A DNA stretch of 64,000 nucleotides from Polyangiaceae bacterium (GTDB lineage: Bacteria > Myxococcota_A > Polyangia > Polyangiales > Polyangiaceae). Under the pieces are notes generated by a model. That model worked only from the letters and a program-made list of their open reading frames with translations, was not told where the DNA came from and ran no database searches. Below are positions 13,044-39,455 of this stretch, one piece after another. The position numbers and the translations under genes were made by a program. The DNA lies in NCBI GenBank assembly GCA_019637295.1, contig JAHBVX010000001.1, positions 1,091,501-1,155,500 on the forward strand, read 5' to 3'. Positions within the stretch are counted from its first letter, which is position 1. Each line of letters starts with the position of its first letter.

Positions 13044-13056
13044 GGTGCAGCGGGCG
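13031..13056. terminator. Possible bidirectional terminator stem
   Basis: A GC-rich stem, CGCCCGC-CG-CTG / CAG-CGGGCG with loop AGGTG and a two-base bulge, spans the stop of the DUF454 gene and lies just beyond the mdh stop. Only short T-stretches flank it, so efficiency is doubtful. Confidence 0.35.
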
Positions 13057-13065
13057 TCCGGACCC

Positions 13066-23669: not shown

Positions 23670-24362
23670 TTGCTCGTTCGGCTACCCCCCCTGTTGCTGG
23701 CCCTCGGCCTCGGTGTCCTCGCCCTGCTGGGTCCGCGGCCGGCCGCGGCGCAGTGCGTGGACGAAGCGCTCAAAGAGCAACTGGTCGGGCGTCGCGCCTA
23801 CCGGGGGGTGGTGCCGCGCCTGTTCAAGAAGGCTCTCCGGCACGAGATTTCGCCCATGGGCGGATGGTACGCGGGTGACATCAGCGATGGGGCACCGGTG
23901 TACGGCGGGGCATACACGTTCCACTTCAGCGAGTACCTGGGCCTGGAGGCGTCGTACTTCCGCACCAAGCAGCGCTATGGGTTGCTGGAGGCCATCATTG
24001 ACCGGCAGCAGGGCCTCATCGCCTTCGTGGACTCGCCCGAAGAGGACATGCAGCTGTTCTTGGGGCACCTGATCTGGTCGCTGGCGTACGGCAAGGTTCG
24101 CTGGCTCGGCGGTGGGATCGGCCGCTATGACTTCTACCTCTCCCTGGGTGCCGGGGCCACGGATACGTCGTCCACCGGCGGGCTGGGCATCACGGGCTCC
24201 GGCGGGTTCGGCATGAAGTTTTACCTGCTCGACTGGTTGGCGTTCCGGCTCGACGCGCGCGACCACGTCCGCAACCACCGCGCTCCGCTCGGGGTGGACA
24301 AGGTGGTCAACGACATCACGCTCATGGGCGGCCTGAGCGTCTTCATCCCGTTCAAGAGCTAG
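23670..24362 (+). CDS. Outer-membrane beta-barrel protein (GltA/GltB-like)
   Basis: About 230 residues if translation starts at TTG 23670, directly before a signal peptide (LALGLGVLALLGPRPAAAQ); no ATG or GTG fits. The mature protein alternates aromatic/polar strands (GAYTFHFSEYLGLEASYFRT, GRYDFYLSLGAG, LLDWLAFRLDARDHVRNH) and ends VFIPFKS, an outer-membrane barrel end. It matches the myxobacterial outer-membrane beta-barrel family that includes gliding proteins GltA/GltB. It is first in a five-gene operon with three large TPR proteins. Confidence 0.75.
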   Translation: MLVRLPPLLLALGLGVLALLGPRPAAAQCVDEALKEQLVGRRAYRGVVPRLFKKALRHEISPMGGWYAGDISDGAPVYGGAYTFHFSEYLGLEASYFRTKQRYGLLEAIIDRQQGLIAFVDSPEEDMQLFLGHLIWSLAYGKVRWLGGGIGRYDFYLSLGAGATDTSSTGGLGITGSGGFGMKFYLLDWLAFRLDARDHVRNHRAPLGVDKVVNDITLMGGLSVFIPFKS

Positions 24363-24458
24363 TCGCCCGAGGGCTCGCGGGATTTCCCGCCCCAGCGCGG
24401 GCCGAGCGCGCAAGCTTGGGGGACCCCAGCGGCGGGCCCCGTGGTAGCATCCGGCCCC

Positions 24459-25190
24459 GTGAAGCCCAAGATTACGCCGCTCGGCCGGGTGCTGTTCGCG
24501 CTCGCCATCGTACTGCTCGCGCTCGCCGCCACCGCTCAGCCCCGGAAGGACAAACCCGGCAAGAAGGTCGAGGCCGACGCACCTGTGGCGACCGAGCCCG
24601 CGCCCGCTGCAGCGCCCGCCGCCACGGACGACCTCGGCGCGCCGCCGCCCAAGCCGGCGCCTGGCTCCGAGAAGGTCACGCCCTCACCGCTCAACCCGGC
24701 GGCGAACGAGTTCGCGGAGGCCAAGCCGCGCCCGCCGCCCGAGAGCTACGACAAGCTGATGGGCGAGATCGCGGCACTGCGCGGGCGGGTGGCTGCGCTC
24801 ACCACGACGTTGTTCTCGAGCAAGCTGCGCGTGGAGATCGAGACGGACGATCACGACGCGGCGCGGATCACGAAGCTCGTCGTCACCCTGGACGACGGGG
24901 TGGTGTACGTGGCCCCGGCCCGATTCAGCGCCGAAGATGCCAAGGTCGTCTACGAGCACGCCGTCGCGCCTGGGCACCACGTGCTCGGTGTCGAGGTCGA
25001 GCGCACCGACGCGCGTGGCCGCGAGTACCAGAGCTGGCAGGCCACGAAGACCAGCATCGTGGTCCCCGAGGGCAAGCGCGTCGTGGCTCGGGTGGTCATC
25101 GAAGACGACTCGGATATGGCCAAGGACTTCCCCGAAGACCAGGACGGCACCTACGAGCTGAATTTCAAAGTGCGAGCCCGGGTCCAGTAA
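24459..25190 (+). CDS. Pro/Ala-rich exported protein with beta domain, Glt-like operon
   Basis: 243 residues from GTG 24459 (another GTG at 24441). A signal sequence ends at ALAATAQP. A disordered Ala/Pro linker runs to about 90, then a short helix (YDKLMGEIAALRGRVAAL) and a beta-sandwich-like domain (KLRVEIETDDHDAARITKLVVTLDDG; GHHVLGVEVERTD). The linker can mislead automatic annotation toward dihydrolipoamide acyltransferase, but no lipoyl or catalytic motif exists. Its TAA stop shares the A of the next gene's ATG. A periplasmic bridging role between the barrel and TPR proteins is inferred from context only. Confidence 0.7.
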   Translation: MKPKITPLGRVLFALAIVLLALAATAQPRKDKPGKKVEADAPVATEPAPAAAPAATDDLGAPPPKPAPGSEKVTPSPLNPAANEFAEAKPRPPPESYDKLMGEIAALRGRVAALTTTLFSSKLRVEIETDDHDAARITKLVVTLDDGVVYVAPARFSAEDAKVVYEHAVAPGHHVLGVEVERTDARGREYQSWQATKTSIVVPEGKRVVARVVIEDDSDMAKDFPEDQDGTYELNFKVRARVQ

Positions 25191-27274
25191 TGCGCGTCCG
25201 GTCCCTCGTCTGGACTCTGGCTCTGTGCCTGGCTGCCGCCAGCGCCAGCGCGCAGGGCAAGGGCAAGCCGGCCAAACCCGCGCCCATCGAGCCCGCGCCC
25301 GTCGAGCCCGCGCCCGCCGAGCCCGCGCCCGTGGCGCCTGCGCCGGCAGCCGAGCCGGGCGAGGCGCCGCCCGAGCCCGCGTCCCCGCGGGACAACGATC
25401 CAGGCTCACCCGATACCCGAAGCCAGGGGGCGCGCGCCTATCAGAAGGCGCTCGAGCGCCGGCGCCTCGCGGCCACCACCCCCCTGAGCCGGCAGCGCCT
25501 GCGCGACGAGCTCGCCAAGGTCGAAGAGAAGCTGGCCGACGGGCGGCGTGACGAGGCCATCGGTGATCTGGTGTATCTGGTCGAGTCCCCGCGCTTCGAC
25601 GCGTTCTCGTCCACCGAAGAAGGTCGCAACGCCCTGCTGCTGCTCGGTGAGTCGCTGGGCCGCGCCGGCGCGACCCAGCCGGCGCGGGGCTATCTGGTCA
25701 AGCTGCTCTCCGGCAAGACGAGCGATCTCTGGTACCGGCGCGCCGTGCGCGCCCTGGTGGACGTAGGGCTCGAGAGCGAGCAGCCGGACGCGGTCCTCAC
25801 GGACCTGGCGGTGGTGACGAACGCTGCCCCGGAGGAGCTCCGCGGTGACATCGCCTACCTTCGGGGTCGCGTCGCCGAGAAGCGCGGTCGAGCCGCGGAG
25901 GCCCTGGCGGAGCTGCGCAAGGTGTCCCCACGCTCTCGGTTCTGGGCGCAGGCGACCTACCTGTCCGGCATGATCGAGGTGGAACGCGGCGCGTTCAAGA
26001 AGGGGGAGAACCTGTTCTGCAAGGTAGCCGACCCGAAGCTGACGCCGAAGGTGGCGCCGCTGTTCGGCGGCGGGGACTTCTTTCGGGTCCGTGACCTCGC
26101 GCGCTTGGCCCTCGGCCGGGTCGCGCACGAGAATTTCCGCTTCGATGACGCGCGCTACTACTACTACCTGGTGCCGCGCGACTCGGACCACATTCCGGAG
26201 GCGCTGTACGAGTCGGCGACCACCCGCTACGAGGCGAAGGACTACGACGGAGCGCGTGAGCTGATGAACGAGCTGCGTGCGCTCGACGTCAATCACCCGT
26301 ACGAGGACGAGGCCTGGGTCCTCGACGCTTACCTGGACATGGCCACGTGCCGCTTCGACCGTGCGGACGCGAAGCTGAACGAGTTCCTCAAGCGCTACGA
26401 GCCGGTGCGCGACTCGGCGCGACGCATCGCTCGGGACGCCTCGGCCGTGAAGAAGCTGGTGGAGGCAGTGCGCACCGGGGGCGATCCTGCCGCGGCCGGA
26501 ATCGGCGGGGACGCCAAGGGTCTGCGCACCCTCGGCGGCCTCTTGCGCGTGGACGCGAGCTACGGCCGAGCCGCGCAACGCATGGCGCAGCTCGACCATC
26601 AGCTGTCGGGCCTGCGCGGTGCGATCGGCGAGATCGACGAAGCGCAGCGCCGCCTGGCCACACCCAAGTCCGTGCGCCCCCAAGCCGCTGGATCCCTGGC
26701 GGATGCGCCGACGGAGAAAATGCGGCGCATCGAGTCGCAGCTCGCGGAGGTGCGCCGGCTGATGCGGGATGCCGAGCGCAGTCGCCGCGGCAAGAAAGGG
26801 GAGCTCGATGCTCTGGCCAAGCAGGCGGACGCGCTGGAGCTGCAGGCCAAGGCGGCGCGCGCGTCCCTCGCGCCCACTTCAGAGGCCAAGAAGGCAACCG
26901 CCACGACGGACCAGGAGCTGTCGAAGGTGCTGACTGACGATCGGGAGCGCGCCGTCGAGCTCTATGCGGCGGCGGAGGCCCTGCGAGGCAAGGTAGATAC
27001 GCAGCAGCTCGAGCTCGCCAAGGACGCGCTCGTCCGCCTCGACCGTCGCCTGTCTCGGTTGTTGCGCCGCGCGCGCCTCGGTCGGGTCGAGACGGTCCTC
27101 GGCCAGAAGCGAGCCCTCGAGGTCGAGGTGGAGGCGCTGACCCAAGGCCTGCTGCCACAGTCCATCGTCGACTCGCTCGATGCTGCGCGCTACCTGCGCG
27201 ACGACGAGGAGTACTGGCCCTTCGATGGCGAGGATTGGGAAGACGAGTACGTCGGTGGGGAGGGACTGCGATGA
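25190..27274 (+). CDS. Periplasmic TPR protein, GltC-like
   Basis: 694 residues from ATG 25190; the frame is open upstream, but this ATG begins a clear signal peptide (LALCLAAASASAQ). After a repeat of Pro-Ala-Glu-Pro units, helical TPR-like pairs run about 75-420 (DEAIGDLVYLVESPRFDAF, GRAAEALAELRKVSP, FDDARYYYYLVPRDSDHIPEAL, YDGARELMNELRALD). A coiled-coil segment follows at about 450-660 (QRMAQLDHQLSGLRGAIGEI, RIESQLAEVRRLMRDAE). The tail is acidic and aromatic. Length, signal and TPR-then-coil layout fit the gliding-motility protein GltC. It overlaps both neighbours. Confidence 0.75.
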   Translation: MRVRSLVWTLALCLAAASASAQGKGKPAKPAPIEPAPVEPAPAEPAPVAPAPAAEPGEAPPEPASPRDNDPGSPDTRSQGARAYQKALERRRLAATTPLSRQRLRDELAKVEEKLADGRRDEAIGDLVYLVESPRFDAFSSTEEGRNALLLLGESLGRAGATQPARGYLVKLLSGKTSDLWYRRAVRALVDVGLESEQPDAVLTDLAVVTNAAPEELRGDIAYLRGRVAEKRGRAAEALAELRKVSPRSRFWAQATYLSGMIEVERGAFKKGENLFCKVADPKLTPKVAPLFGGGDFFRVRDLARLALGRVAHENFRFDDARYYYYLVPRDSDHIPEALYESATTRYEAKDYDGARELMNELRALDVNHPYEDEAWVLDAYLDMATCRFDRADAKLNEFLKRYEPVRDSARRIARDASAVKKLVEAVRTGGDPAAAGIGGDAKGLRTLGGLLRVDASYGRAAQRMAQLDHQLSGLRGAIGEIDEAQRRLATPKSVRPQAAGSLADAPTEKMRRIESQLAEVRRLMRDAERSRRGKKGELDALAKQADALELQAKAARASLAPTSEAKKATATTDQELSKVLTDDRERAVELYAAAEALRGKVDTQQLELAKDALVRLDRRLSRLLRRARLGRVETVLGQKRALEVEVEALTQGLLPQSIVDSLDAARYLRDDEEYWPFDGEDWEDEYVGGEGLR

Positions 27275-30200
27275 GGCGAACTCACCTCGCCGCGCTCGCC
27301 CTCTGTCTGTTCGCGGCCAGCGCCCACGCGCAGACCGGCGAGCCGGGCAGCCCGGCGATGGCGGGCGAGAAGAGCCAGATCAAGCCGGTGGGCGAGCGCA
27401 AGCTCGGGGCGCGCGCGCGCCCGACGCACAAGAAGCAGACCCAGAAGAAGGAGGACGCCGCGCGCGCTACCCGCGTGAGCCTGCAGATCCCCGAGCGGCT
27501 GCGCAAGGCCCTCGAGCGCAAGATCGACGCGCGCATCGCCTGGAACATCCAGCAGCAGAAGAAGCTCCGCGGGGACGCGCTGAAGCTGCTGCGCAAGTTC
27601 GTGGCCGAGAGCCCCGAGGACTCGGACGAGTTGCCCGAGGCGCTGATGCGGCTCGGCGAGCTCGAGTGGGAGGAGTCGAGGGATCAGTTCCTGGTCGACT
27701 TCAACGCGTGGGAGAAGAAGCCGCAGGAGCAGCGCGGCGAGCCACCGTCCCCCAACTACCAGGCTGCCCGCGGGCGCTTCCTCCGCGTGCTGAAGAACCA
27801 CAAGACGTTCCGCAGCTACGACCTGACGCTCTACGTCGACGGGTTCCTCGCCAACGAAGAGGGCAAGTTCGAGGATGCGCTCGGCCGCTTCAACAAGATC
27901 CTCGAGTGGTTCCCCAAGAGCCGCTTCGTGCCCGATGCTCACATGGTTCGCGCCGAGTACGAGTTCACCAAGGACGCCCCCAACTACCAGACGGCCTTCG
28001 AAGAGTACGAGTTGGTGCTGAAGTACAAGGACAGCCCGCTCTACGACCTGGCGTTGTTCAAGAGCGCGTGGTGCCTCTGGCGCCTGGGTAAGACGGATCT
28101 CGCTGCGCGCCGCTTCCTGACCGTGTTCAAGGACTCGGCGGAGGCGAACGAGCGCGGCAAGTCGCGGGAGGAGATCGACGAGCTACAGCGGGAGGCGCTC
28201 AAGAACCTGGTCGCGGTCTTCGTCGAGGACGAGAAGAACCGCGCCGAGGACATGCATCAGTTCCTGGTCAAGGCGGGCGGCGACAAGTTCGCCGGGCGCA
28301 TCGTCCGGGCGCTGGCCGAGGCGCTCTACGAGCAAGCCCACTACGAGCGCGGGATCGAAGCCTACCGGCTGCTGCTGAAGCTCGAGCCGATGAACCCCCA
28401 GGCGTACCGCCACGCGTTGGCGGTGGCGCAGGGCGACTCCACCATGGAGGCGTGGAAGAAGCTGCAGGAGGACTACCGCTGGATCATCGCGGAGTACGTG
28501 CCGCCGCGTCCGCCCAAGAAGGGGCAGAAGCCCGCGAAGGCGGGCGCGTGGACTCGGGTTCAGCAACCGGTGACCCTGGCCGCCGCCACCAAGGCGGTGA
28601 AGGCGCAGCTGCGGGACGACGCGGTGGGTCTGCACGCCAAGGCGCAGGCGGACAAGGTCAGCCGCAGCCAATACGAAGGCGCAGCGGGGCTGTACCAGGT
28701 GTACCTCTCCCGCTTCGGACACGAGTTGGACTCGTACGAGGTGCACTACAACCTCGCCGAGATCTATTTCTACCACATCGACAAAGAGGACAAGGCCGCG
28801 GACGCCTACCTGGCCGCGGTTCGACTCGACCCCAAGGGCAAGCTGAGCCGCAATGCCCTGTACAACGCGCTCGCCGCGCTCGAGCGCGCGCGTGCGCGAG
28901 AGTTCGAGGCTCGCCGCGCCGCCGGCAAGAAGCAGGAGGAGTCGCCCCTCGACAAGCAGCTCACCGAGGCGATGGAGTTGTACGTCAAGAGCTACCCCAA
29001 CGACTCGGAGGTCCCCGAGCTCTTGTTCCGACAGGGCAAGCTCTACTACGACTACGAGGTCTACGATCCCGCGGTGCGGCAGTGGGGCCTCTTGCTCGAG
29101 AAGTACTCCTCGAGCCGCTTCGCGGTGGGCGCGGGTGAGCTGATCCTGGACTCGTTCAACAAGAGCAAGGACTACGAGAACATCGAGACCTGGGCGCGAC
29201 GGCTCAAGACGGCACCGTCGTTCATGAAGCCGGAGCAACAGGCCAGGTTGAACACGCTGATCGTTCAGGCGGTGTTCAAGCAGGGGGAGCAGCACGCCGA
29301 GGCCAGTCGCCACGACAAGGCCGCGCAGGCTTATCTGCGTGCGGCGACGGAGTTTCCCAAGGAGCCCAGGGCTGCACAAGCCGCCATCAACGCCCAGGTC
29401 GAGGCTCGGCGCGCGGCGGACCTGCCGACCCTGAAGGCCGCCGCTGCGCTGCTCATCAGCGACCATCGCGCGCGTCCGGAGGCCGCCCAGGGACTGTGGA
29501 TCGCGGCGACCACCCACCAGGAAATCGGGCTCTTCAGCGACGCCGCTGGGTACCACGAGGTCATCGTGGAGAGCTTCCCCAAGTACGAGCATCACAAGGA
29601 CGCCGCGTTCAACGCGGTCTTGCTCAGGACTACGGTCGGCGATCACGCCAAGGCCATCGAGAACGGCAACAAGTTCAAGAGGCTGTATGGCCGCGACGAA
29701 GCCGCCGACGAGGTCACCTTCCTGATGGGCAAGGCCCACGAGAAGGCGGAGAAGTGGAAAGACGCCGAGCGTCTCTACGCCGACTATGCCCGCGCCGCGC
29801 GCCGCCCCGGCAGCCAGGTCGAGGCCTACACTCGGCTCGCCAGTGTGCGTCTCCGCGCGGGCGACGTGAAGGGCGCGGACACCGCGCTGGCCAGCGCGCT
29901 CAAGACGTACAAGCAGCGCAAAGGGGCTATCGACGCGGATGGCCGCTATTTCGCCGCCAAGGCGCGCTACATGCAGGGAGAGCGCGTGCTGCAGGACTAC
30001 GAGCGCGTGAAGATCGAGGGCGAGGTCAAGCAACTCAAGGAGCGTCTGCGCAAGAAGAGCGAGCTGCTCAAGCGTGCGGCCGACACGTTCCTGGACACCG
30101 CCGAGATGGGCGTCGCGGAGTGGACCACCGCGTCCCTGTATCAGATTGGCTTCACCTACGAGTCGTTCTCCAAGGCGCTGCTCAACTCACCGCCTCCTGA

Positions 30201-30630
30201 CAGCCTGAGCGCGCAGGACAAGGAGCTGTATTCGCAACAGCTCGACGAGTTCGTCATCCCGATCGAGGAGCGCGCGCTCGAGGCGTACGAGAGTGGCTGG
30301 CTGAAGGCACGAGAGCTGGGGATCTTCAACTCCTGGACGGCCAAGATGCGCGAGGCGCTCGGGCGGCTGAACTCGGAGCTGTTCCCGCCGCTTCGAGAGA
30401 TTGGCTTCGAGCTCCGCTCGAAGGGGCCCTCTGCGCTGCCAGCCTTGATCGAGGCGCCGCGCCGCACGAAGGCCCAGCGCAGCGAGGCCTACACGATCCC
30501 GTTGGAGGAGACCTTGGCCGAAAAGAAGGAGGCGGCGGCAGCGAAGCCGGCGCCCGAGGCCGAGGAGCCGAAGGCGGAGCCCCCGTCGGACAATCCCTAC
30601 AAGCCCACCAAGCCAGGAGGGCAGAAGTGA
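27271..30630 (+). CDS. Large periplasmic TPR protein, GltD/AgmU-like
   Basis: 1119 residues from ATG 27271, overlapping the previous stop (ATGA). A signal peptide ends at ASAHAQ. At least ten TPR-type helix pairs are spread over the protein (KFEDALGRFNKILEWFPKSR, YQTAFEEYELVLKYKDSPLY, YERGIEAYRLLLKLEPMNPQ, YEGAAGLYQVYLSRFGHELD, HDKAAQAYLRAATEFPKEPR and others). The C-terminus is Lys/Ala/Pro-rich (EEPKAEPPSDNPYKPTKPG). Size and repeats resemble M. xanthus GltD (AgmU), a periplasmic scaffold of the gliding complex. Ordinary TPR assembly factors are the alternative. Confidence 0.75.
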   Translation: MRRTHLAALALCLFAASAHAQTGEPGSPAMAGEKSQIKPVGERKLGARARPTHKKQTQKKEDAARATRVSLQIPERLRKALERKIDARIAWNIQQQKKLRGDALKLLRKFVAESPEDSDELPEALMRLGELEWEESRDQFLVDFNAWEKKPQEQRGEPPSPNYQAARGRFLRVLKNHKTFRSYDLTLYVDGFLANEEGKFEDALGRFNKILEWFPKSRFVPDAHMVRAEYEFTKDAPNYQTAFEEYELVLKYKDSPLYDLALFKSAWCLWRLGKTDLAARRFLTVFKDSAEANERGKSREEIDELQREALKNLVAVFVEDEKNRAEDMHQFLVKAGGDKFAGRIVRALAEALYEQAHYERGIEAYRLLLKLEPMNPQAYRHALAVAQGDSTMEAWKKLQEDYRWIIAEYVPPRPPKKGQKPAKAGAWTRVQQPVTLAAATKAVKAQLRDDAVGLHAKAQADKVSRSQYEGAAGLYQVYLSRFGHELDSYEVHYNLAEIYFYHIDKEDKAADAYLAAVRLDPKGKLSRNALYNALAALERARAREFEARRAAGKKQEESPLDKQLTEAMELYVKSYPNDSEVPELLFRQGKLYYDYEVYDPAVRQWGLLLEKYSSSRFAVGAGELILDSFNKSKDYENIETWARRLKTAPSFMKPEQQARLNTLIVQAVFKQGEQHAEASRHDKAAQAYLRAATEFPKEPRAAQAAINAQVEARRAADLPTLKAAAALLISDHRARPEAAQGLWIAATTHQEIGLFSDAAGYHEVIVESFPKYEHHKDAAFNAVLLRTTVGDHAKAIENGNKFKRLYGRDEAADEVTFLMGKAHEKAEKWKDAERLYADYARAARRPGSQVEAYTRLASVRLRAGDVKGADTALASALKTYKQRKGAIDADGRYFAAKARYMQGERVLQDYERVKIEGEVKQLKERLRKKSELLKRAADTFLDTAEMGVAEWTTASLYQIGFTYESFSKALLNSPPPDSLSAQDKELYSQQLDEFVIPIEERALEAYESGWLKARELGIFNSWTAKMREALGRLNSELFPPLREIGFELRSKGPSALPALIEAPRRTKAQRSEAYTIPLEETLAEKKEAAAAKPAPEAEEPKAEPPSDNPYKPTKPGGQK

Positions 30631-31724
30631 CTCGTCTAGGCGCGGCCGTCGCGGTGGCGCTGCTGCTCGCGGCCTGCGGAGGCGGAGGCCGACAGGAGGC
30701 CAAGGCGCCGGTGTTGCCGCCCGCCAACCCGGAAGCAGCCAGCAAGATGGCTCGCGCGGTGGCCACCGCCAAGGACGCTGGCGGCAGGAAGCGCGCGATC
30801 GAGCTGCTGCGGCAAGCGCTGAAGCTCGACCCAAACCTGTGGGAAGCTCGCTACAACCTGGGCGTGCTGCTGGCGGAGGAGGGTGAGGTCAACGACGCGG
30901 AGAAGGAGCTGGCGGCTGCGTTCGAGCTCGCGCCCAACGCGGAGGACGTCGTCGTGGCGCTGGCCGAAGTGCGACGGCGGCGCGGGGACGCCAAGGGCAG
31001 CGCTGCGGCGCTCGAGCCCTTCGTGAAGCAGCATCCGAAAGCCGTGTCGGCGCGGATCGCGCTGGTCAGCGCGTTGCGTGAGTCGGGCAACGTGGACGCT
31101 GCCATCGAGCACGCCCGCGAGGTGCTGGTGCGCCGGCCGAGTGATCCGAACGCGCTCGCCGAGCTGGCCATGTCGCACTTGACTCGCGGTGAGACCGACA
31201 CCGCGGACTTGTTGGTGAAGGAGGCGCTGAAGGCGGATCCGAACAACGCCATCGCCGAGCGCACCGCGGGTCTGGTGGCGCTCAAGCGGGGTGATGACGC
31301 CGTCGCCTTCCAGCACTTCGCCAAGGCCAGCAGCCTCGATCCGAAGGACACCACCGCGCGCTTGAACACCGGCACCGTGCTGCTGCAGGCAGGGGTCTAC
31401 GACAAGGCTGTAGAGGAGTTTCGCGGTGTGCTCGCGGTCAAGCCCGGTGATACACCGGCGGAGCTTGGGCTGGCGGCGGCGCTGCGGGGCCTGGGGGCGC
31501 GGGACAAGCCGGGCCCGTATCAGGAGGCCGAGCGCGTGCTCAAGGCCGTCTTGGCCCGAGAGCCCAAGAACCTCAACGCGCTGTTCAACCTCGCCGTCCT
31601 CTACGCCCACTTTCTCGCCAAACCCGGCGAGGCCAAGCCGCTGTTCGAGCGCTTCTTGGGCGTCGCGCCGGCGTCCCACCCCGCTCGCGCCGAAGCACAG
31701 AAGATGGTCGCTGCTCAGAAGTGA
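30627..31724 (+). CDS. TPR lipoprotein, GltE-like
   Basis: 365 residues from GTG 30627 (GTGA overlap with the previous gene). Lipobox LLAAC gives Cys 17. Eight or so canonical TPRs follow (RAIELLRQALKLDPNLWEAR, AIEHAREVLVRRPSDPNALA, AVAFQHFAKASSLDPKDTTA, KAVEEFRGVLAVKPGDTPAE), much more regular than in the two upstream proteins. Lipid anchoring plus TPR matches the gliding-motility TPR lipoprotein GltE. As the last gene of the operon it may link periplasmic scaffold proteins to the outer membrane. Confidence 0.75.
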   Translation: MTRLGAAVAVALLLAACGGGGRQEAKAPVLPPANPEAASKMARAVATAKDAGGRKRAIELLRQALKLDPNLWEARYNLGVLLAEEGEVNDAEKELAAAFELAPNAEDVVVALAEVRRRRGDAKGSAAALEPFVKQHPKAVSARIALVSALRESGNVDAAIEHAREVLVRRPSDPNALAELAMSHLTRGETDTADLLVKEALKADPNNAIAERTAGLVALKRGDDAVAFQHFAKASSLDPKDTTARLNTGTVLLQAGVYDKAVEEFRGVLAVKPGDTPAELGLAAALRGLGARDKPGPYQEAERVLKAVLAREPKNLNALFNLAVLYAHFLAKPGEAKPLFERFLGVAPASHPARAEAQKMVAAQK

Positions 31725-31740
31725 GGAGCCGACGAGGACT

Positions 31741-33258
31741 TCAGAGCAGGAGCGGGTGGCTGGCGAGGGCTTCGTTCAGCTGCACCAGCGGGCTCTGGGC
31801 GGGCAGGGACTTCGAGACCTCCTGAAGCTCCGCCTTCGCGGCCTGCAGCTGCGCGCGGTCCAGCGCCCGGAGCGCCTCCGCGACGGTCATGACGGCACGC
31901 AGCCGCTGAGCCTCGAGGGCCGGCTTGCTGGCGTCGAAGAGCTCCGGACTGGTCGTGCTCGAGGGCTCCGTGGACTCGACGTTGCCCCAGGCAGTCGTCT
32001 TGTACTTCACGACGACCGAGAGCGGCTCCGTCGACGAGGTGTGGGCCAGCTCCTCGCTGCAGGTTTGGAGCCGGAACAGGAAGACCTGCACGCCATCCGA
32101 GCTCAGATCCGTGGCCGCGTCGGGATCGAAGCTGGCGGTCAACTCCTGCTCGGCGCCGCGGGTGAGCGTGAAGTGCCAAGGCAGCTGCAGGCTCACGCTC
32201 ACGTTGTAGAGCGCCACGCTGAGCATCTCGGGCACCATGGCGCCGACGTACTCGACCTCTTGCGACGAGCCCGCGTGCACGAAGTGCCCCCCTCCGGTGC
32301 GCGCCAGGGCGCGGAAGAAGCGATCCGGCAGCTCGGTCGCGGCGCCAACGCTGATGGCGCTCAGCCGGGCGCCTTGGGCCGTCAGCTCCGAGAGGGCAGT
32401 CGCCGGGATGCGCGCCGGATCGTCCTTGCCGTCGCTGAGCAGGAAGGCGCGGTCTCCTGCGCCGAGGACCAGCGTCGGATCCTGCAAGACCGTCGCTAGA
32501 GCGTCCGTGATGCTGGCCTCGCCGTCCACGCCGCTGACTTCGTCGATGCTGCTCGGGCTCGCGCCGGAGACCGTGCGCAAGGACAGCTGCGCTTCGCTCG
32601 GCAGGTGGGACGCGATCGCGTGTGCGACCTGCTTGGCGCGGCCGAGGGGCGAGCTCGGATCTTGTGCGTCACCCATCGAGAGGGTGTCGTCGATGATCAG
32701 CACGACGTGCTGGTTGGCTGGCGGAGGCACCGACGGAGCGTGCACCAGCACCAGCAGATCGAACTGGTTGCCGGCCACCTGTCGCAGCTGCGTCAAGACC
32801 GTGGGGGCAGAGGCGGAGCCGGGGACGAGCAGCCCGGTGTCGGCGGACGGCTCGGCGTAGTAGTTCAGGAAGTCCTGTACCCGGAGCAGCTGCGGGATGG
32901 GCGCGACCTGGGCGCGCATGAGCTCACCCGCGACCGCAGGGCTGGCAAAGCCGCCCGACTCGGCCACGGAGACGTCCACCTCGGAGCCGTGCCCCGTCAT
33001 CTGCTCGCAGCCCGCGACCTGGTCCGGCGCGAGGGCCTGCTGCGCGGCCTGTGCCTGCTCCGTCCACTGACCAGTCGGCTCGTCCATGATGGGCCCCCCA
33101 CCGAAGCTGCCTCCGAGCCCCAGGCCCGCGTCAGCCCCCGGCCCGCCGCCGACGGCGCCACCTCCATCCGGTCCAGCCCTCTGCTCGAGCTGCTCATCGC
33201 ACGCGATCGCCAGCGCGCCCACCATGCCCAAGCCCAACCCGAGCTGCACCAGTCTCAT
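31741..33258 (-). CDS. VWA-domain lipoprotein (YfbK-like)
   Basis: 505 residues from ATG 33258. Lipobox AIAC gives Cys 20, followed by a Gly-rich linker. A segment with the pattern RVQDFLNYYAEP (about 125-137) matches the N-terminal region of YfbK-type proteins. The von Willebrand A domain follows with an intact-looking metal site: VLIIDDTLSMGD, DALATVL and LLSDGKDDP; the usual DxSxS appears as DDTLS. The C-terminal about 150 residues form beta strands and a final helical pair. It is downstream of an FHA gene on the same strand with a 108-base gap. Probably a surface or periplasmic assembly protein. Confidence 0.8.
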   Translation of the reverse strand: MRLVQLGLGLGMVGALAIACDEQLEQRAGPDGGGAVGGGPGADAGLGLGGSFGGGPIMDEPTGQWTEQAQAAQQALAPDQVAGCEQMTGHGSEVDVSVAESGGFASPAVAGELMRAQVAPIPQLLRVQDFLNYYAEPSADTGLLVPGSASAPTVLTQLRQVAGNQFDLLVLVHAPSVPPPANQHVVLIIDDTLSMGDAQDPSSPLGRAKQVAHAIASHLPSEAQLSLRTVSGASPSSIDEVSGVDGEASITDALATVLQDPTLVLGAGDRAFLLSDGKDDPARIPATALSELTAQGARLSAISVGAATELPDRFFRALARTGGGHFVHAGSSQEVEYVGAMVPEMLSVALYNVSVSLQLPWHFTLTRGAEQELTASFDPDAATDLSSDGVQVFLFRLQTCSEELAHTSSTEPLSVVVKYKTTAWGNVESTEPSSTTSPELFDASKPALEAQRLRAVMTVAEALRALDRAQLQAAKAELQEVSKSLPAQSPLVQLNEALASHPLLL

Positions 33259-33349
33259 ACCGAGCAGTGTTGCACGCTTCGTGCCGCCCGGGATCACCGG
33301 CGGAAAACGCCGTCCGCCCACATCAGCCCACCGATCCAGCGGCCAGAGT

Positions 33350-33367: not shown

Positions 33368-34102
33368 TCAGCGCTGGGCCAGTGCCCGCCAGTCCAGGGT
33401 CACGACATCCACGGCAGCGACCACGTCCGGAAGCTCCTGTCGCACCTCGGGCGGAAGCGAGCCCCGGTGAGCGCTCGCCAGCTCGACCACGTAGTCCACC
33501 CACGCGCCGTGCCCGGTCGCCCGCGCGAGCTTGAGGGCGAAACGATAGGCCTCGGCCACCACGGCCGGGTCGAGGGGCTTGCCCCGCCGGGCAGACGCGA
33601 GCAGCTCGTCCAGGTGCGGCTCGAGGATCCGTCGAACCTCGTCGAGCTGCCCCGCCGCGAGCGCGGCCTCTGCGCTCTCGCCCAGGATGGCGAAGATGCT
33701 CGCCGCGTTCGTGTCCAGCTCTGGCGCCTCGGGCGGGCGCTTCTTGTAGCGTGGGATCTCCGCGGAGGTGGTGACGTTGCGCGGACCTCGCGGCGCTTGC
33801 ACGCCGCTGTGCAGCCAGAAGAGCTGCCCCCCAATGCGCACGCGACTGCCGGCGGCGAGCTCCCGACGGCCCGTGATGCGCTGCTCGTCCACGAACGTGC
33901 CGTTCGTGCTGCCCAGATCCTCGAGCACGACGCGACCTTGATCGAGCAGGACTCGCGCGTGGATCCGGCTCACGAGCGGATCGTCGTCGAACCTCAGGTG
34001 ACAGCCCATGTCCCGACCGATCAAGAGCTCGCGCTCACCGAGCGGGGCGTCGCCGTTTGGGCAGCGCAGCCACCAGCGAGGGGTTTCCCGTTGGTCCGAC
34101 AT
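33368..34102 (-). CDS. FHA-domain protein
   Basis: 244 residues from ATG 34102. A forkhead-associated phosphothreonine-binding domain sits at about 15-85 with all key features: LIGRDMGCHLRF (Gly-Arg), LVSRIHARV (Ser-x2-His) and DLGSTNGTFVDEQRI (Asn-Gly). A short linker (about 100-120) precedes a helical C-terminal domain of unknown type (ASIFAILGESAEAALAAGQ, DEVRRILEPHLDELLASARR). It likely reads Ser/Thr kinase signals; a kinase gene lies at 50.1 kb, but no link can be shown. No membrane segment. Confidence 0.88.
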   Translation of the reverse strand: MSDQRETPRWWLRCPNGDAPLGERELLIGRDMGCHLRFDDDPLVSRIHARVLLDQGRVVLEDLGSTNGTFVDEQRITGRRELAAGSRVRIGGQLFWLHSGVQAPRGPRNVTTSAEIPRYKKRPPEAPELDTNAASIFAILGESAEAALAAGQLDEVRRILEPHLDELLASARRGKPLDPAVVAEAYRFALKLARATGHGAWVDYVVELASAHRGSLPPEVRQELPDVVAAVDVVTLDWRALAQR

Positions 34103-34242: not shown

Positions 34243-35424
34243 ATGCCATGCTGCGACCGCTTGAGCACCGCCGTCCTGCAGCTTCCCGACGCCATGGAAG
34301 AGGTCCTCGTCGCCGGTCACCCGTGGGTGTACCGCGAGCGGATGCCGCCCGCATTTAGGGCCGAGTCCGGCGCGATGGTTCGGGTCCGCGCGGGTCGCTT
34401 CAGCGGCTACGGGATCTTCAGCCGAGGCGGGCAAATCGCGCTGCGCATTCTCTCGTGTCACGAGCCCCCGGACGCGGCTTGGGTCGCGGCGAGGATCCGC
34501 GACGCGCGCGACCTGCGCGCGCCGTTCATCGCGGCTGACACGACCGCCTATCGCCTCGTGTTCGGCGAGGGAGACCTACTTCCGGGTGTCACCGTGGACG
34601 TCTACGGCTCCTTCGGTGTGGTCGCGACCTACGCCGACGGTCTCGACGCTCTGGCTCGCTGGGCCGCGGAGGCTGCCACACTCGAGCTCGGGCTCGCGGG
34701 TGTACTCTGGCGCCGGCGAGCCGAGAGCGAAGGAGCGAGAGGGACTACGCTGCTCTCGGGGAGGCAGCCTCCCGGCGAGGTCGTGGTGAGCGAGCACGGG
34801 GCGCGGTTCGCGGTGGATCTGGTCCGGTCGCAGAAGACCGGACTGTTCCTGGATCACCGCGAGAATCGCCGTCGAGTGGCGATGCTGTGTGCTGGAAAGA
34901 GCGTGCTCAACCTGTTCGCGTACACTGGCGGTTTCTCGGTACATGCCGCGCTGGCGGGGGCTCGGCACGTGACGAGCGTGGACGTGGCTCAGCCCGTCAT
35001 GACCGCGGCCATGCGCAACTTCGAGCTCAACGGGCTCGACTCGGCAGCGCACGAGTTCGTGGCCGAGGACGCGTTCGCCTGGCTCGAGTCGGCCCGCCGA
35101 CGGGGTCTTCGCTACGACGTCGTGATCTGCGATCCGCCGAGCTTCGCCAAGCGCCGTGAGCAGCGACGCGACGCCCTCAAGGCGTACAAGCGCCTCAACT
35201 CGGCGGTGCTGCGGGTGGTGTCGGCGGGAGGCTACTTGGCTACCGCGAGCTGCACGTCGCAGGTCGAGCCCGAGGCGTTTCGACGGGTGGTGGCCGAGGC
35301 CGCGATGCGGGCGCGGCGCCGGCTTCAGCTGGTGCTCGAGGCGGGGGCCGGACCTGACCATCCGACACTGGTGGTGCATCCCGAGGGACGCTATCTCAAG
35401 TTCCTGCTCGGCCGCGTCACTTGA
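34243..35424 (+). CDS. Class I SAM-dependent rRNA methyltransferase, RlmI-like
   Basis: 393 residues. The N-terminal PUA-like RNA-binding domain includes GHPWVYRERM and VRAGRFSGYGIFS. A linker (AYRLVFGEGDLLPGVTVDVYG) follows, then a Rossmann methyltransferase: KTGLFLDHRENRR, VLNLFAYTGGFSVHAALAGA (SAM loop), SVDVAQP, and VICDPPSFAKRR (Asp-Pro-Pro). This order is that of RlmI/RlmK-type 23S rRNA m5C methyltransferases. A Cys in TASCTSQ is the candidate catalytic nucleophile. The start at ATG 34243 gives the usual family length. It overlaps the convergent OmpA gene by eight bases. Confidence 0.88.
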   Translation: MPCCDRLSTAVLQLPDAMEEVLVAGHPWVYRERMPPAFRAESGAMVRVRAGRFSGYGIFSRGGQIALRILSCHEPPDAAWVAARIRDARDLRAPFIAADTTAYRLVFGEGDLLPGVTVDVYGSFGVVATYADGLDALARWAAEAATLELGLAGVLWRRRAESEGARGTTLLSGRQPPGEVVVSEHGARFAVDLVRSQKTGLFLDHRENRRRVAMLCAGKSVLNLFAYTGGFSVHAALAGARHVTSVDVAQPVMTAAMRNFELNGLDSAAHEFVAEDAFAWLESARRRGLRYDVVICDPPSFAKRREQRRDALKAYKRLNSAVLRVVSAGGYLATASCTSQVEPEAFRRVVAEAAMRARRRLQLVLEAGAGPDHPTLVVHPEGRYLKFLLGRVT

Positions 35425-36802
35425 GCAGCTTGAACTCGATCCGCCGATTCTTCTGCTTGCCGGCCCAGGAATTGTTGTCGGCGATGGGCTCGTCCGGTCC
35501 AGCGCCCCGCGTCGCGATGCGACCGTCGGCGATCCCCTTGGCCACTAGGTACGCCTTCACAGCGTCGGCGCGAGCCTTGGACAGCTCGAGGTTGCGCTCG
35601 CGCGGGCCGTCCGTATCGGTGTGCCCGCTGATCTCCACGCGCACCGAGGGGAACTCGGCGAGCACGTCGTACGCCGCGTTCAGTCGCTTGTTCGAGGCGG
35701 GGCGGATGGTCGCCTTGCCCGTGTCGAACTCGATGCCCTCGATCACGCCGGTGAACTGCTTGATCTTCTCGGGTACCTCGTCCGGGCAGCCGTCGTCGTC
35801 CTGGTACTGATTGACCGTCTCTGGCTCGTTCGGGCACTTGTCCGCGTCGCCGAGGATGCCGTCCTTGTCCGGGTCCGCATCCACGGGGCAGCCGTCTGGT
35901 GCGACGCCGGCGGTGTCCGGGCACTTGTCCTGCTCGTCGGTGACGCCGTCGCCGTCCCTATCCCTCAGCGGGCAGCCGTCCGGGGCGACCCCCGCCTCGG
36001 AGGGGCATGCGTCCTGAGCGTCCATGAAGCCGTCCCCGTCGCTGTCGCGCACGGGGCAGCCGTCCGGTGCGGCGCCGGCCTCGTCCGGGCAAGCGTCCCG
36101 ATCGTCGAGGAAGCCGTCGCCGTCCCGATCCGGACGCGGCTTCAGCGAACGCTTGCGGTTCAGGACGAAGGTGAGCGAGCCGATGACCTCCGGGTGGTGC
36201 GTCAACGAGCCGTCGTCAGCGCCGTTCTTCTGTGTGAGGTTGTCGCGCACGTCGAGGCGCAGCATCAGGAAGTCGTCGAGGGGCGCCTTGACGCCCAGAC
36301 CGAAGTGGAAGAGTGGGTCCCCGTCGCTGCCCATCGCGTTGCTGCCGGCGCCCATGCGCCCGCCACCCGCCACGACGAAGGGGACTACGCTGTAGAGCGG
36401 CAGCTGCCCGACCAGGTGTCCGCGAAAAGCCCACAGGCCAGCGGAGTCATCGTCCTCGGTTCGGGTGGGCATCACCGCACCCTCGAGCTCAGCGCCGACG
36501 AAGGTCAGCGGGAAGTAGCCCAGGCGAAGCCCGATGTCCGGCGCGATGCTGCGGAATGCTTGGTGGCTCTTGTTCTCGTCGTGGAAGTTGTGGTCCTTGG
36601 ACGGGAACAAGACGCCGCCGAACAGGCTCACCTCGAACAAGCCGTCCTCGGGCTTGTTCTCGCTCAGGTAGCCCGAGCTCGACGTGTCGAGCCCGCCTGA
36701 CGTCGAGAAGGACGCCGAGGCGGCGGCATCGGATTGAGCTAATGCGGTCTCCGGGAGCGAGGCCAGCAATAGAACGCAGAGCCAAGTGGACTTCATTTTC
36801 AT
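35417..36802 (-). CDS. OmpA-family outer-membrane protein with TSP3 calcium repeats
   Basis: 461 residues from ATG 36802 (MKMKSTW). The signal peptide ends at ETALAQS. An N-terminal beta-barrel (about 50-240) is followed by four Asp-rich thrombospondin type 3-like repeats (DRDGDGFLDDRDACP, DSDGDGFMDAQDACP, DRDGDGVTDEQDKCP, and a diverged fourth) with paired Cys. The C-terminal OmpA peptidoglycan-binding domain has IEFDTGKATIRPASNKRL, ISGHTDTDGPRERNLELSKARA and NRRIEFKLL. It tethers the outer membrane to murein. Last of a leftward cluster after another barrel gene. Confidence 0.92.
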   Translation of the reverse strand: MKMKSTWLCVLLLASLPETALAQSDAAASASFSTSGGLDTSSSGYLSENKPEDGLFEVSLFGGVLFPSKDHNFHDENKSHQAFRSIAPDIGLRLGYFPLTFVGAELEGAVMPTRTEDDDSAGLWAFRGHLVGQLPLYSVVPFVVAGGGRMGAGSNAMGSDGDPLFHFGLGVKAPLDDFLMLRLDVRDNLTQKNGADDGSLTHHPEVIGSLTFVLNRKRSLKPRPDRDGDGFLDDRDACPDEAGAAPDGCPVRDSDGDGFMDAQDACPSEAGVAPDGCPLRDRDGDGVTDEQDKCPDTAGVAPDGCPVDADPDKDGILGDADKCPNEPETVNQYQDDDGCPDEVPEKIKQFTGVIEGIEFDTGKATIRPASNKRLNAAYDVLAEFPSVRVEISGHTDTDGPRERNLELSKARADAVKAYLVAKGIADGRIATRGAGPDEPIADNNSWAGKQKNRRIEFKLLK

Positions 36803-36863: not shown

Positions 36864-37598
36864 TCAGAGGTCGAACGCATACCGAAGGGATGCGCCCCCC
36901 AGGATGGCGATGGGCGGGTCAGTGCTGCGGAGGCGGGACATCCCGTCCCCGTAGCTGCGCACCCCGGCGTGCGCGGAGAGCGCGAGGTGGGGGCTGACCT
37001 GGTACCACTCCAGGCCCAGCGCACCCCCGAAGTAGAGGTTCATCGAGTCGGCATTGGTGTAGCCGTAGACGAACAGGACATCCTCGCTGACCTCCGCCAT
37101 GCCTGCGCTGCCCTGCAGGTAGATGCCGAGCCAATCGGCGGGTCGCAGCGTGAAGCGCAGCCCAGCGCCAACGCCATAGTGCGCGTAGCCGCGGGGCTCG
37201 GGCGGCCGGGCCGCGTAGGAGGTCGTCGCGAAAGCGACGTCCGCTTCGCCGAACAGCATGAGCCAGGAGAGCGGCTCCACGCCGAGCTTGAAGTGGAACC
37301 AGGGCGACGTGGGCGACACGTTCTTCATGGTGCCGAGGTGGCTCAGCGCGCCGACGCCGGTCTCGATCACGATGCCTTGTGAGCGGGGCGGCGGCGGGGG
37401 TGCCTCGGGCTCCTCCTCCACCGGGCCGATGTCTCGGGAGCCCGGCATGCCGCGGGAGTCGAGCCAGGCCTCGATTTCCGCCTGGGTCATGTCCCGCCGC
37501 TGGGGCTGCTCTTCGGCCGCAGTGGCGAGCGCCGCCGTCGCGAGCGTCACTGCCCCTGCCATCAGCGAGCCCAAGCTGCGGTCTGCCACGAGGCCCAC
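36864..37598 (-). CDS. Exported outer-membrane beta-barrel-like protein
   Basis: 244 residues from GTG 37598. A signal-like segment (LMAGAVTLATAALATA) is followed by MTQAEIEAWLDSRGMPG, an acidic/proline linker (about 58-72), then alternating strands ending in LGGASLRYAFDL, a C-terminal Phe-x-Leu expected of outer-membrane barrels. The family is not recognised beyond this. It lies 15 bases after pyrE and 61 bases before the OmpA gene, all leftward. Confidence 0.65.
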   Translation of the reverse strand: MGLVADRSLGSLMAGAVTLATAALATAAEEQPQRRDMTQAEIEAWLDSRGMPGSRDIGPVEEEPEAPPPPPRSQGIVIETGVGALSHLGTMKNVSPTSPWFHFKLGVEPLSWLMLFGEADVAFATTSYAARPPEPRGYAHYGVGAGLRFTLRPADWLGIYLQGSAGMAEVSEDVLFVYGYTNADSMNLYFGGALGLEWYQVSPHLALSAHAGVRSYGDGMSRLRSTDPPIAILGGASLRYAFDL

Positions 37599-37613: not shown

Positions 37614-38171
37614 TCAGCCCATGAAGTCGTTTCGCGTGAAGAGGGCTCGGAGGACGAGGCCCCCGGCCTCAATCGTTTCGCGCCCACCTTCACGGCGATC
37701 GACCAGGGCCACGATGCCGCCCACCGTCGCGCCAGCCTCGGTCAAGGCTCGAACCGCCGCGAGGCTCGAGCCCCCGGTCGTGATCACGTCTTCGAGCAGG
37801 ACCACTCGCGCTCCGGGCGCCAGTGCTCGGTCCCCCTCGACCAGCTTGGCGCTGCCGTGGTCCTTCTGCTCCTTGCGGACGTACAGGGCCGGGAGGTCTC
37901 GACCGCGCTGGTGGCTGATGAGGCTGACGGCGCTGGCAAGCGGACAGCCGCCCAAGGCGACCCCCGCCACGGCGGCGACGGGGCCGAACGCATCCAGGGC
38001 CTCGAACATCAGCTCGCCGACGAGGGCGTGACCTTCTGCGGTGAGCACCGTCTGCTTGCAGTCGATGAAGAAGTCGCTCTCCTTGCCGGAGGCGAGGATC
38101 ACTCGCTTCTGCTCGAAGCTGCGCTCCCTCAGCAAACTGAGCAGCCGCTGGCGACGCTCATCGGCCGTCAC
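37614..38171 (-). CDS. pyrE: Orotate phosphoribosyltransferase
   Basis: Joins orotate and PRPP to give OMP in pyrimidine synthesis. 185 residues from GTG 38171, which overlaps the stop of the upstream bactofilin gene (GTGA). Motifs are FILASGKESDFFIDCKQ (N-terminal, shifted but recognisable), AGVALGGCPLASAVS, YVRKEQKDHG (catalytic loop) and the PRPP motif VVLLEDVITTGGSS. The coupling to cytoskeletal genes is unusual for a nucleotide enzyme. Confidence 0.92.
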   Translation of the reverse strand: MTADERRQRLLSLLRERSFEQKRVILASGKESDFFIDCKQTVLTAEGHALVGELMFEALDAFGPVAAVAGVALGGCPLASAVSLISHQRGRDLPALYVRKEQKDHGSAKLVEGDRALAPGARVVLLEDVITTGGSSLAAVRALTEAGATVGGIVALVDRREGGRETIEAGGLVLRALFTRNDFMG

Positions 38172-38770
38172 GCGCGACTGACCTTCTTCTTCTTTCCCCG
38201 CACGCTCTTGCCGAGTGCAGGGACGACCGGCGCGGGCGGGCGGTCCGCCGACCGGGTGTCCGGCGCCTTCTTGCGCTCCGGGCTGGCGGGCGCCGGTGCT
38301 GCCGCCACCGGGGCGGGAGCGGCCGCGGCCTTGGCGGGGACCGGTGCTGGGGCCACCGGTGGAGGCGCAGGTCGCTCGAGTCTGACGGGCTCGGGGACGC
38401 GCCGGACTGCGGCGACCGCTGCGCGCCGCGGAGCCGCCGGCTCCCCCTCGGTGCGGACTCGCCCGCGCACCAGCGCGCCTTCGGCGACCCCGATGCGAGG
38501 GGCGGTCAGATCCCCGACCACCCGAGCGCCGCGCTCGAGCAGCACCGCTTCGGCGCCCTGCAGGTCACCCGCGACCTGCCCGGCGATTACCAGCTGAGCG
38601 CCGCGAATGTTGCCCTCCACGCCGCCCTGCTCGCCGAGCGCGACGTCTCCGTCGACCTCGACGTCACCGTGCACGCGACCGCGGATTTCGATCGAACCCG
38701 AGCCGCGAATGTTGCCGCGGACCACCGTGCCTTGAGCAATGATCGAGGTGCTGGGCATCGGCCGGCTCAC
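38168..38770 (-). CDS. Bactofilin with long Pro/Ala-rich tail
   Basis: 200 residues. A bactofilin core (about 10-105) is made of short beta-helix turns: GTVVRGNIRGSGSIEIRGRV, GDVEVDGDVALGEQGG, VEGNIRGAQLVIAGQVAGD, LERGARVVGDLTAPRIGVAEGA. The C-terminal half is disordered, rich in Ala/Pro/Val, and ends in a basic patch (SVRGKKKKVSRA). Bactofilins polymerise without nucleotide into filaments that localise cell-wall or chromosome-segregation factors. It overlaps the upstream bactofilin gene by four bases and the downstream pyrE by four bases. Confidence 0.9.
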   Translation of the reverse strand: MSRPMPSTSIIAQGTVVRGNIRGSGSIEIRGRVHGDVEVDGDVALGEQGGVEGNIRGAQLVIAGQVAGDLQGAEAVLLERGARVVGDLTAPRIGVAEGALVRGRVRTEGEPAAPRRAAVAAVRRVPEPVRLERPAPPPVAPAPVPAKAAAAPAPVAAAPAPASPERKKAPDTRSADRPPAPVVPALGKSVRGKKKKVSRA

Positions 38771-39081
38771 ACGTCCATGTCGACGCTGCCCTTGAAGGAC
38801 GCGCCGTCCGCGATGGTCAGCCGGGAGGCCTTGACGTCACCGATCAGGCGCCCGCCGGCCTGGATGTCCACGCGGTCCCGCGCGGTCGCGTTGCCGGTCA
38901 CTTGACCGCCGATCGTCAGTGAACTCGCGGACACGTCGGCCTCGACGACGCCACCTGCTGCGATGTGCACGGGACCGGACGTGGTCAGCACGCCTCGCAC
39001 GGTTCCGTGCACGGCTACTTCCTCGTCTGCCGTCAGCTCGCCTTCGATCGTCAGCCCCTCGCCAATCACACTGCCTGCCAT
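38767..39081 (-). CDS. Short bactofilin
   Basis: 104 residues, almost wholly beta-helix core: GEGLTIEGELTADEEVAVHG, VHIAAGGVVEADVSASS, LTIGGQVTGNATARDRVDIQ, AGGRLIGDVKASRLTIADGA. There is no extended tail, so it probably co-assembles with its two neighbours. Middle gene of three consecutive bactofilins; the first lies 20 bases upstream. Confidence 0.9.
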   Translation of the reverse strand: MAGSVIGEGLTIEGELTADEEVAVHGTVRGVLTTSGPVHIAAGGVVEADVSASSLTIGGQVTGNATARDRVDIQAGGRLIGDVKASRLTIADGASFKGSVDMDV

Positions 39082-39101
39082 GTTCGTTCCTGTTCTCGCC
39101 G

Positions 39102-39455
39102 TCAGCGCCCGCTGGCGAAGTCGAGCGAAAATTCCGTCTCGAGTCGAACGTCCACCGTCGCGCCCGGCTCGATGGTCACGCTGTTGCCCACCAGGTCGCC
39201 GCGCACGCTGGCCCCGGTGCGCACCTGGATGTTACCGGTGCAGCGGGCGTCCCCGCGCAACTCCCCCGCGATGTCGAGGGACTCCGCCGCGACGTCCCCC
39301 TCCACCCTGCCGCCGGCCGCGATTTCGGACCGGCCGCCCACGCTGACATCCCCCTGGACCGCGCCCTCGATGCGCAGCGCGCCCTTGCCACTGACCCTGC
39401 CCGCCACCTGCGTGGCGGCGCCAAGTACGCTCGTGTCCGAAGTCAGCTTTGCCAT
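39102..39455 (-). CDS. Bactofilin, first gene of the triplet
   Basis: 117 residues from ATG 39455 (MAKLTSDTSVLG); the open frame extends further upstream but the residues there look non-coding. Core turns are VAGRVSGKGALRIEGAVQG, VSVGGRSEIAAGGRVEGD, VAAESLDIAGELRGDARCTG and ASVRGDLVGNSVTIEPGATV. Three neighbouring bactofilins with one long-tailed member recall M. xanthus BacN, BacO and BacP, although the parAB/padC genes found there are not in this window. Confidence 0.88.
   Translation of the reverse strand: MAKLTSDTSVLGAATQVAGRVSGKGALRIEGAVQGDVSVGGRSEIAAGGRVEGDVAAESLDIAGELRGDARCTGNIQVRTGASVRGDLVGNSVTIEPGATVDVRLETEFSLDFASGR

Follow-up and report, generated by a model that had tools for sequence, protein, structure and literature searches.

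Gene content and kinship with Glt proteins

The window analysed here is a stretch of 64,000 nucleotides from a Polyangiaceae bacterium (GenBank assembly GCA_019637295.1, contig JAHBVX010000001.1, positions 1,091,501 to 1,155,500). It carries a cluster of five forward-strand genes related to the Glt gliding machinery. An outer-membrane barrel, an exported Pro/Ala-rich protein (P2), a GltC-like protein, a GltD-like protein and a tetratricopeptide repeat (TPR) lipoprotein lie in the order given by the original prediction, and all frames are open (Table 1). The three overlapping start/stop junctions it described are present in the sequence (TAATG at 25190, ATGA at 27271 and GTGA at 30627), and genes 1 and 2 are spaced by 78 bases. 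A codon-usage gene caller recovered all five genes, which adds little because the caller was trained on these same genes. No promoter was detected in a promoter scan (0.6 expected), and terminators were at chance level (6 found versus 5.0 expected).

Table 1. Genes of the operon and its detached last gene (positions in the window)
Feature	Position	Strand	Length (aa)	Evidence
Outer-membrane beta-barrel, GltA/B-like (OMP_myx_plus)	23670..24362	+	230	TIGR04565, structure model, Foldseek
P2, exported Pro/Ala-rich protein, helix and C-terminal Ig-like beta-sandwich	24441..25190	+	249	Structure model, homologues
GltC-like TPR and coiled-coil protein, exported	25190..27274	+	694	NF033756, hhalign
GltD-like TPR protein, exported	27271..30630	+	1119	hhalign, GltD tree
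GltE-like TPR lipoprotein	30627..31724	+	365	Lipobox (LLLAAC, read directly in the sequence); assignment by position
Predicted outer-membrane protein, last gene of the set, detached here	36864..37598	-		Hidden Markov model (HMM), blastp

Gene 1 has a TTG start, and its true start is uncertain. Its product passed TIGR04565 (87.2 bits, cut-off 60), a family common to this protein and the GltA/B-like barrels of the host. The structure model showed 8 strands with a mean predicted local distance difference test (pLDDT) score of 75.4, and the nearest folds in Foldseek were OmpA, OprF and OmpW (best E 9.5e-6). P2 belongs to no named family: it had no match in NCBIfam or Pfam, and a fold search of its model against the PDB returned nothing at E≤1e-3. 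The Ig-like fold was assigned by eye from the strand order in the model, with a block-mean pLDDT of 78-93 across most of the sandwich. P2 homologues are present in operons of the type found here (window type) and of the G4 type, which we infer to be that of the Myxococcus xanthus G4 cluster (MXAN_1922).

Three proteins of the set missed their equivalog cut-offs: GltC with 87.4 of 450 bits (NF033756), GltE with 97 of 225 bits (NF033758, outscored by another TPR model) and GltG, encoded at a second locus, with 68.8 of 650 bits. The canonical GltC, GltE and GltG of the host, from a cluster on contig C12, likewise remained below these cut-offs (GltC 285.6 bits, GltG 333.2 bits). In hhalign, the profile of the GltC-like family matched the canonical GltC at 98.9% and the host's paralog on contig C19 at 98.5%. 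The GltD-like profile gave 99.6% with the canonical GltD (920 columns) and 98.4% with the C19 paralog. As a TPR-rich control, a segment of the host's GltI-like protein reached 0.3% for the GltC-like and 0.8% for the GltD-like profile, which rules out generic TPR as the explanation of both matches. Judged by these profiles, the kinship of GltC and GltD is specific, and adjacent GltC and GltD homologues beyond generic TPR place the locus in the Glt/Nfs superfamily.

The kinship of the window GltD is distant, because a single-sequence phmmer search with it found neither host paralog; the corresponding matches of GltC and GltE were modest. For the GltE-like protein, generic TPR was not rejected: a different TPR lipoprotein also reached 95%. 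Its assignment is the weaker one and is based on position more than on sequence. The proposed correspondence with Glt proteins thus stands for the barrel, GltC, GltD and the Glt/Nfs-like layout, and is mainly positional for GltE.

The second locus and the split of the operon

The operon had been described as the envelope half of a Glt machine without its motor. There is indeed no motor gene in the window, which holds 0 of the genome's 6 MotA/ExbB matches. The motorless appearance, however, arose from the limits of the window and from the split of the operon: further genes of the set were found ~0.98 Mb away, and the genome contains two putative AglR-Q-S-type motor sets (see the following section). 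HMMs from the operons of relatives located GltF, GltG and a lipoprotein, Y, together at C1:130784-133713. GltG (C1:131314-132723) has an AgmX/PglI C-terminal domain (NF033768, 75.7 bits, cut-off 40), and inspection by eye pointed to a single membrane helix and a Gly-rich linker. Hence, the GltG-type adaptor of the Glt/Nfs superfamily is present in trans here and contiguous in relatives. Among the proteins compared, the host GltF was closest to a Labilithrix GltF directly after E (65.6% over 61 aa), and GltG and Y were closest to proteins of a sister-family operon.

Two other routes to GltG were set aside. NF033768 alone was of little use, with 27 matches in the host genome. An FHA protein at 33368-34102 of the window has the FHA domain and no AgmX/PglI match.

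The last gene of the set was overlooked in the original prediction and lies 5 kb downstream of the operon on the opposite strand. Its protein matched the HMM of the full operons' last gene at 3e-15, and its best blastp hit outside the family, among those compared, was the last gene of the operon in genome G027 (31%, 1.3e-24). (G and L with three digits are our handles for genomes and loci.) The protein itself has no NCBIfam or Pfam match. Its homologue in L103 reached 53.4 bits against CglE (NF033755), below the cut-off of 70; via such homologues in relatives, the product is predicted to be CglE/GltH-like. A homologue also lies downstream of D-E in L028, L030/L099, L034, L097 and L098.

Fifteen loci were found in named genomes, down to 34% identity: five from Polyangiaceae, two from Polyangia, one each from Labilithrix and Kofleriaceae, five labelled 'Myxococcales' and one 'Proteobacteria'. 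In a six-frame HMM search, the GltD-like frame was followed by lipoprotein E in all 15. P2-C-D-E were contiguous in six (L027-L030, L039 and L041), and C-D-E in L040. In L032, L033 and L035-L038, other genes parted D-E from C, or C was outside the stretch; L031 and L034 begin inside D.

In several relatives, the genes now split in the host are contiguous. The orders were Y-barrel-P2-C-D-E-F-G in L209 (G177), barrel-P2-C-D-E-F-G in L210 (G147) and D-E-F-G in L213 (G140). The sister family of the same order also shows barrel-P2-C-D-E-F-G (L100), and L101 shows P2-C-D-E-F-G, one other gene, and then Y and the last gene. The fullest form, barrel(s)-P2-C-D-E-F-G-Y-H, was found in other families of the class (L039, L041, L103, L105 and L135; the first two from named records). 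Moreover, GltD and GltG lie within ~3.3 kb on one contig and strand in G177, G147, G185, G154, G140 and G165; in G161, a distance of 5.3 kb that contains other genes separates them. F-G-Y adjacent to each other and away from C-D-E were found in the host and in the eight loci L185-L192. In L184, from the same genus, F is 4 kb from G-Y, and L193 has ~9 kb between G and Y, which lie on different strands. The genes of the set were thus separated by more than one route.

Gene calling missed genes in several loci (e.g. L098, L106, L107 and L190). L100, L106 and L107 were called anew with a model retrained where coverage was low, and a six-frame check of window-type loci added GltF (L101, L209 and L211), E (L037) and F-G-Y (L190). 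In some cases, two locus names refer to one contig (L027/L217 of G155, L030/L099 of G051 and L032/L096 of G071); L198 and L209 overlap (G177), and L034 is probably G167.

The GltD tree had 47 rows and was built with a quick method, with support from the Shimodaira-Hasegawa-like approximate likelihood ratio test (SH-aLRT) only. It contains three long rows, two of which are the host's C12 and C19 copies. The window type formed its own clade of 17 rows (support 100), and the Glt, G4 and GltJ-linked types each formed one separate clade. The GltG tree (44 rows, careful method) placed 22 window-type rows in one clade (100/99). Nested in it, the nine split GltGs, the host's included, formed one clade (100/99), whose neighbours in the tree are five GltGs encoded in contiguous operons of this family. 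G4-type rows formed clades of their own (100 for D and 100/97 for G), with the window D and G outside. Likewise, window-type GltD and GltG stood outside the Glt clade, in the separate clades given above. No named Nfs sequence was among the rows.

The half-operon is derived, because F and G are contiguous with C-D-E in relatives from the same family, the sister family and further families of the class. On these trees and gene orders, the simplest reading is a single splitting event in part of the family. The suggestion of an ancestral platform is not supported, since full operons in relatives and the single nested clade of split GltGs rule out an ancestral half-machine.

Three side observations concern these loci. 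A search for P2 between the barrel and C genes gave nothing in L211 (G185; 11775-13433) and L212 (G154). The C-like protein of G185 bears an N-terminal SPLNP..NEF motif known from P2 of other genomes; P2 may have been lost or fused there. By eye, the detached F-G-Y adjoins ribosomal L21/L27-like genes in L187, L188 and L192, and so do G4-type operons in L109, L117 and L120; this neighbourhood is possibly a common ancestral locus of both. A gene divergent from the full operons lies upstream in L039 and L102-L105. The L039 copy has FHA and sigma-54 activator domains, those of L102-L105 are similar to it by eye, and none was noticed beside the window operon.

Co-occurrence, motors and proposed function

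In 60 genomes of the family, one per species, a strong match to the window GltD (P0004) was defined as E≤1e-60, and 25 genomes had one. Y was present in 23 of the 25 and in none of the remaining 35 (Fisher p = 1.3e-14, a value that overstates independence because the species have common ancestry). The two genomes lacking Y (G140 and G166) are 80% and 82% complete. The window-type GltG model matched 19 of the 25 and 0 of the 35 at E≤1e-58 (Fisher 8.7e-11). Relatives of the window GltD of any type were found in 110 of 140 Myxococcota genomes (E≤0.001). In the window-type clade, all rows other than those from named Myxococcota records came from the host's class; as these are the best loci only, absence elsewhere is not proved.

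The host carries three Glt-type systems: the window operon, the C19 operon and the canonical C12 cluster. The latter (C12:847.8-878.5 kb) has two barrels, GltC, GltD, a GltE-like protein, GltG and a short gene that looks GltF-like by eye; a giant TPR protein occupies the GltI position. In the C19 operon (~273-284 kb), P2, C, D and E precede another short gene judged GltF-like by eye and a GltG-like protein; next come a porin-like gene and one for a Poly_export/SLBB protein. As the same families occur in one genome and the motors are possibly common, the window set might be an alternative outer-membrane module of the gliding machine, one that swaps places with the canonical GltC-D-E within a single Agl-Glt machine; the CglE-like last gene of a relative would fit this as well. 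We consider such an exchange unlikely. A GltG of its own belongs to the set, and both trees give it a separate clade. Among the 35 family genomes that lack the window type, at least 12 have a GltD-like match near a GltG-like one on a single contig, as read from the match rows (G006, G032, G089, G148, G150, G158, G162, G169, G176, G181, G182 and G183), which means that Glt-type clusters also exist where the window type is lacking. Moreover, the accessible part of PMC3169522 reports normal motility for M. xanthus mutants of the G3, G4 and G5 gltD copies.

Two divergent MotA/ExbB-ExbD-ExbD sets lie back to back at C19:210155-214384 (L019:6156-10385). Their first proteins were 40-45% identical to the motors between F and G in four G4-type loci (L117, L128, L130 and L107), compared with 24-28% for the host's other four MotA/ExbB-family proteins; the exceptions were two stretches of 70-71 residues, in which identity reached 34% and 38%. 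The G4-operon motors used for comparison are backed by their position and ExbB-ExbD-ExbD make-up. An H+-pyrophosphatase gene lies directly downstream of one of the C19 sets.

The lack of an adjacent motor and the split, patchy distribution of the operon (25 of 60 family genomes) would also fit a static envelope scaffold, or a Tol/Ton-like-driven system, that has lost its motor coupling. The GltD-like protein narrowly passes the YbgF model (91.6 bits, cut-off 90.1), in line with that idea. It appears improbable nevertheless, given that a GltG with the AgmX/PglI domain tracks the operon and that putative AglR-type motor sets are present in the genome.

With a probability of about 0.7, the window operon is the outer half of a paralogous transducer of the Glt/Nfs type, with a split operon and distinct from the canonical Glt of the host. 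It is probably a separate, non-gliding version of a Glt-type machine, and its most likely role is that of an envelope transporter that moves surface cargo by motor force, as far as analogy with known systems can tell. The outer-membrane and periplasmic parts would come from the window operon, and GltG, GltF and Y from the C1 locus, the originally contiguous operon having broken up in an ancestor of some family members. GltG would be moved by protons flowing through an AglR-Q-S-type motor (the C19 sets). GltG would engage the periplasmic C, D, E, F and P2, through which the force may reach the barrel, the CglE-like protein and Y; these in turn could move a polymer or adhesin on the cell surface. 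Such a motor would have to work in trans, because none was found within the window-type or F-G-Y stretches.

Several results weigh against this transducer. Y stands alone in nine stretches (L194-L197 and L199-L203), some of them from G147, G154 and G185, where GltG remains beside C-D-E; therefore, Y and GltG need not travel together. The host GltF and Y match no named family in NCBIfam or Pfam, and the host GltG exceeds a cut-off for the AgmX/PglI domain only and has no FHA match. No AglR/Q/S-type gene was found in six frames of the window or of the window-type and F-G-Y loci, while control loci were recovered. The C19 sets match no AglR family model (the best NCBIfam match was TolQ, below cut-off), and it was a model built from these host sets that located the comparison motors in the G4 operons. 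Because of both, the label 'AglRQS-type' refers to position and make-up. The co-occurrence thresholds were chosen after the scores had been seen. At E≤1e-58, 6 of the 25 GltD genomes lacked GltG; four of them show pieces at contig edges, and G167 and G168 had no GltG piece among the matches listed. Three genomes with no window-type GltD (G032, G181 and G151) were narrowly beyond the threshold (best 4.3e-55), with GltGs that are long and of another kind.

A narrower form of the proposed transporter is a surface-polysaccharide machine that moves or organises exopolysaccharide or a coat polymer, like Nfs with the spore coat. Nfs moves together with the Exo polymer (PMC3858216, in its accessible part). 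Porin-like and Poly_export/SLBB genes come after the host's G4-like C19 copy (L018/L043) and after the operon in L109, a direct genomic link from a Glt-type machine to polysaccharide export. Beside window-type loci, however, no export gene was noticed (neighbours inspected by eye, few of them family-searched). By analogy with Nfs and the G4-type neighbours, a polysaccharide cargo is plausible, although this specific machine is possible rather than probable.

We further propose, tentatively and at somewhat less than even odds, that the motor-driven transporter represents an undescribed class of surface machine within the Glt/Nfs superfamily, with P2, Y, its own adaptor, a borrowed AglRQS-type motor and a non-gliding task. 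Its lineage would lie in the host's class, apparently Polyangia; P2 is common to the G4 type, and Y is unseen in other types. If true, three cargo complexes per cell would be served by apparently two AglRQS-type motors. As the paralog lineage is found in 25 of 60 genomes, it offers natural with/without comparisons for non-gliding roles of such complexes. A caution also follows: a machine that is motorless in one window may have its other half 1 Mb off, and the distant half can be recovered through relatives' operons and co-occurrence.

Among the neighbouring genes, a convergent gene at 31741-33297 (-) ends 16 bases past the operon. Its protein is VWA-like by eye and has no Pfam or NCBIfam match. 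CglB, a gliding adhesin, has a VWA domain. An OmpA-domain protein with thrombospondin type 3 repeats is encoded at 35417-36802 (-), and its C-terminal part matches TraB (136.5 bits, cut-off 700). Three bactofilin genes (PF04519) lie side by side at 38168-39473 (-); by eye, bactofilin-like genes are also near the window-type operon in L030/L099 and L097.

Comparison with known systems

A literature search, mostly of listings, gave no paper recognised as describing this operon type. Copies from Sorangium, Haliangium and Plesiocystis are reportedly drawn in a supplementary figure of Luciano et al. 2011, which we have not seen, and members of the type may already be included there. MXAN_1327 is listed under Tad-like pili in the accessible part of a 2023 paper (PMC10196010) and could not be reconciled here.

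Compared with Glt/AglRQS (M. xanthus and the host's C12 cluster), the window type is alike in the GltA/B-type barrel, GltC-G and the gene order. It differs in having P2 and Y, in its separate clade and in the location of its genes at three places in the host. No GltI or GltJ was seen in the window-type set.

Nfs (M. xanthus G3) is alike as a Glt-paralogous cluster; its motor is in trans, as that of the window type would be. In the accessible part of PMC3858216, it is a single cluster, nfsA-H, of eight genes homologous to gltA-H, and neither P2 nor Y is named there. By that description, the window type differs in P2 and Y. With nfsA-H in one cluster, the presence of C, D and E in one operon is not unusual. 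Nfs is placed next to Glt in PMC3169522, and the Agl motor serves both; AglR binds GltG and NfsG in two-hybrid assays (PMC3858216 and PMC3169522, as far as accessible). Hence, one motor can serve gliding or spore-coat assembly via exchanged envelope complexes.

The GltJ-linked cluster (L118 by family match; L127 and L132 by eye) shares barrel, C, D, E and F with the window type. It forms its own clade, contains a GltJ-like Zn-ribbon protein (NF033761, 165.3 bits, cut-off 450) and has no P2 or Y match; perhaps it corresponds to M. xanthus G5. In the accessible part of PMC3169522, the functions of G4, G5 and M2 are unknown, and the mutants tested were unaffected in motility.

The G4 type, including the host's C19 paralog, shares P2, C, D, E, F and G with the window type. 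It has its own clade and, in both cases tested, polysaccharide-export and porin-like neighbours. WzpB (MXAN_1916) is described with WzaB in the accessible part of PMC9603273, and from numbering and gene order, the WzpB/WzaB locus would adjoin G4. The AglRQS-type set lies between F and G in four G4-type loci, whereas none is adjacent in the window type. The barrel, Y and the CglE-like gene, in turn, are those of the window type.

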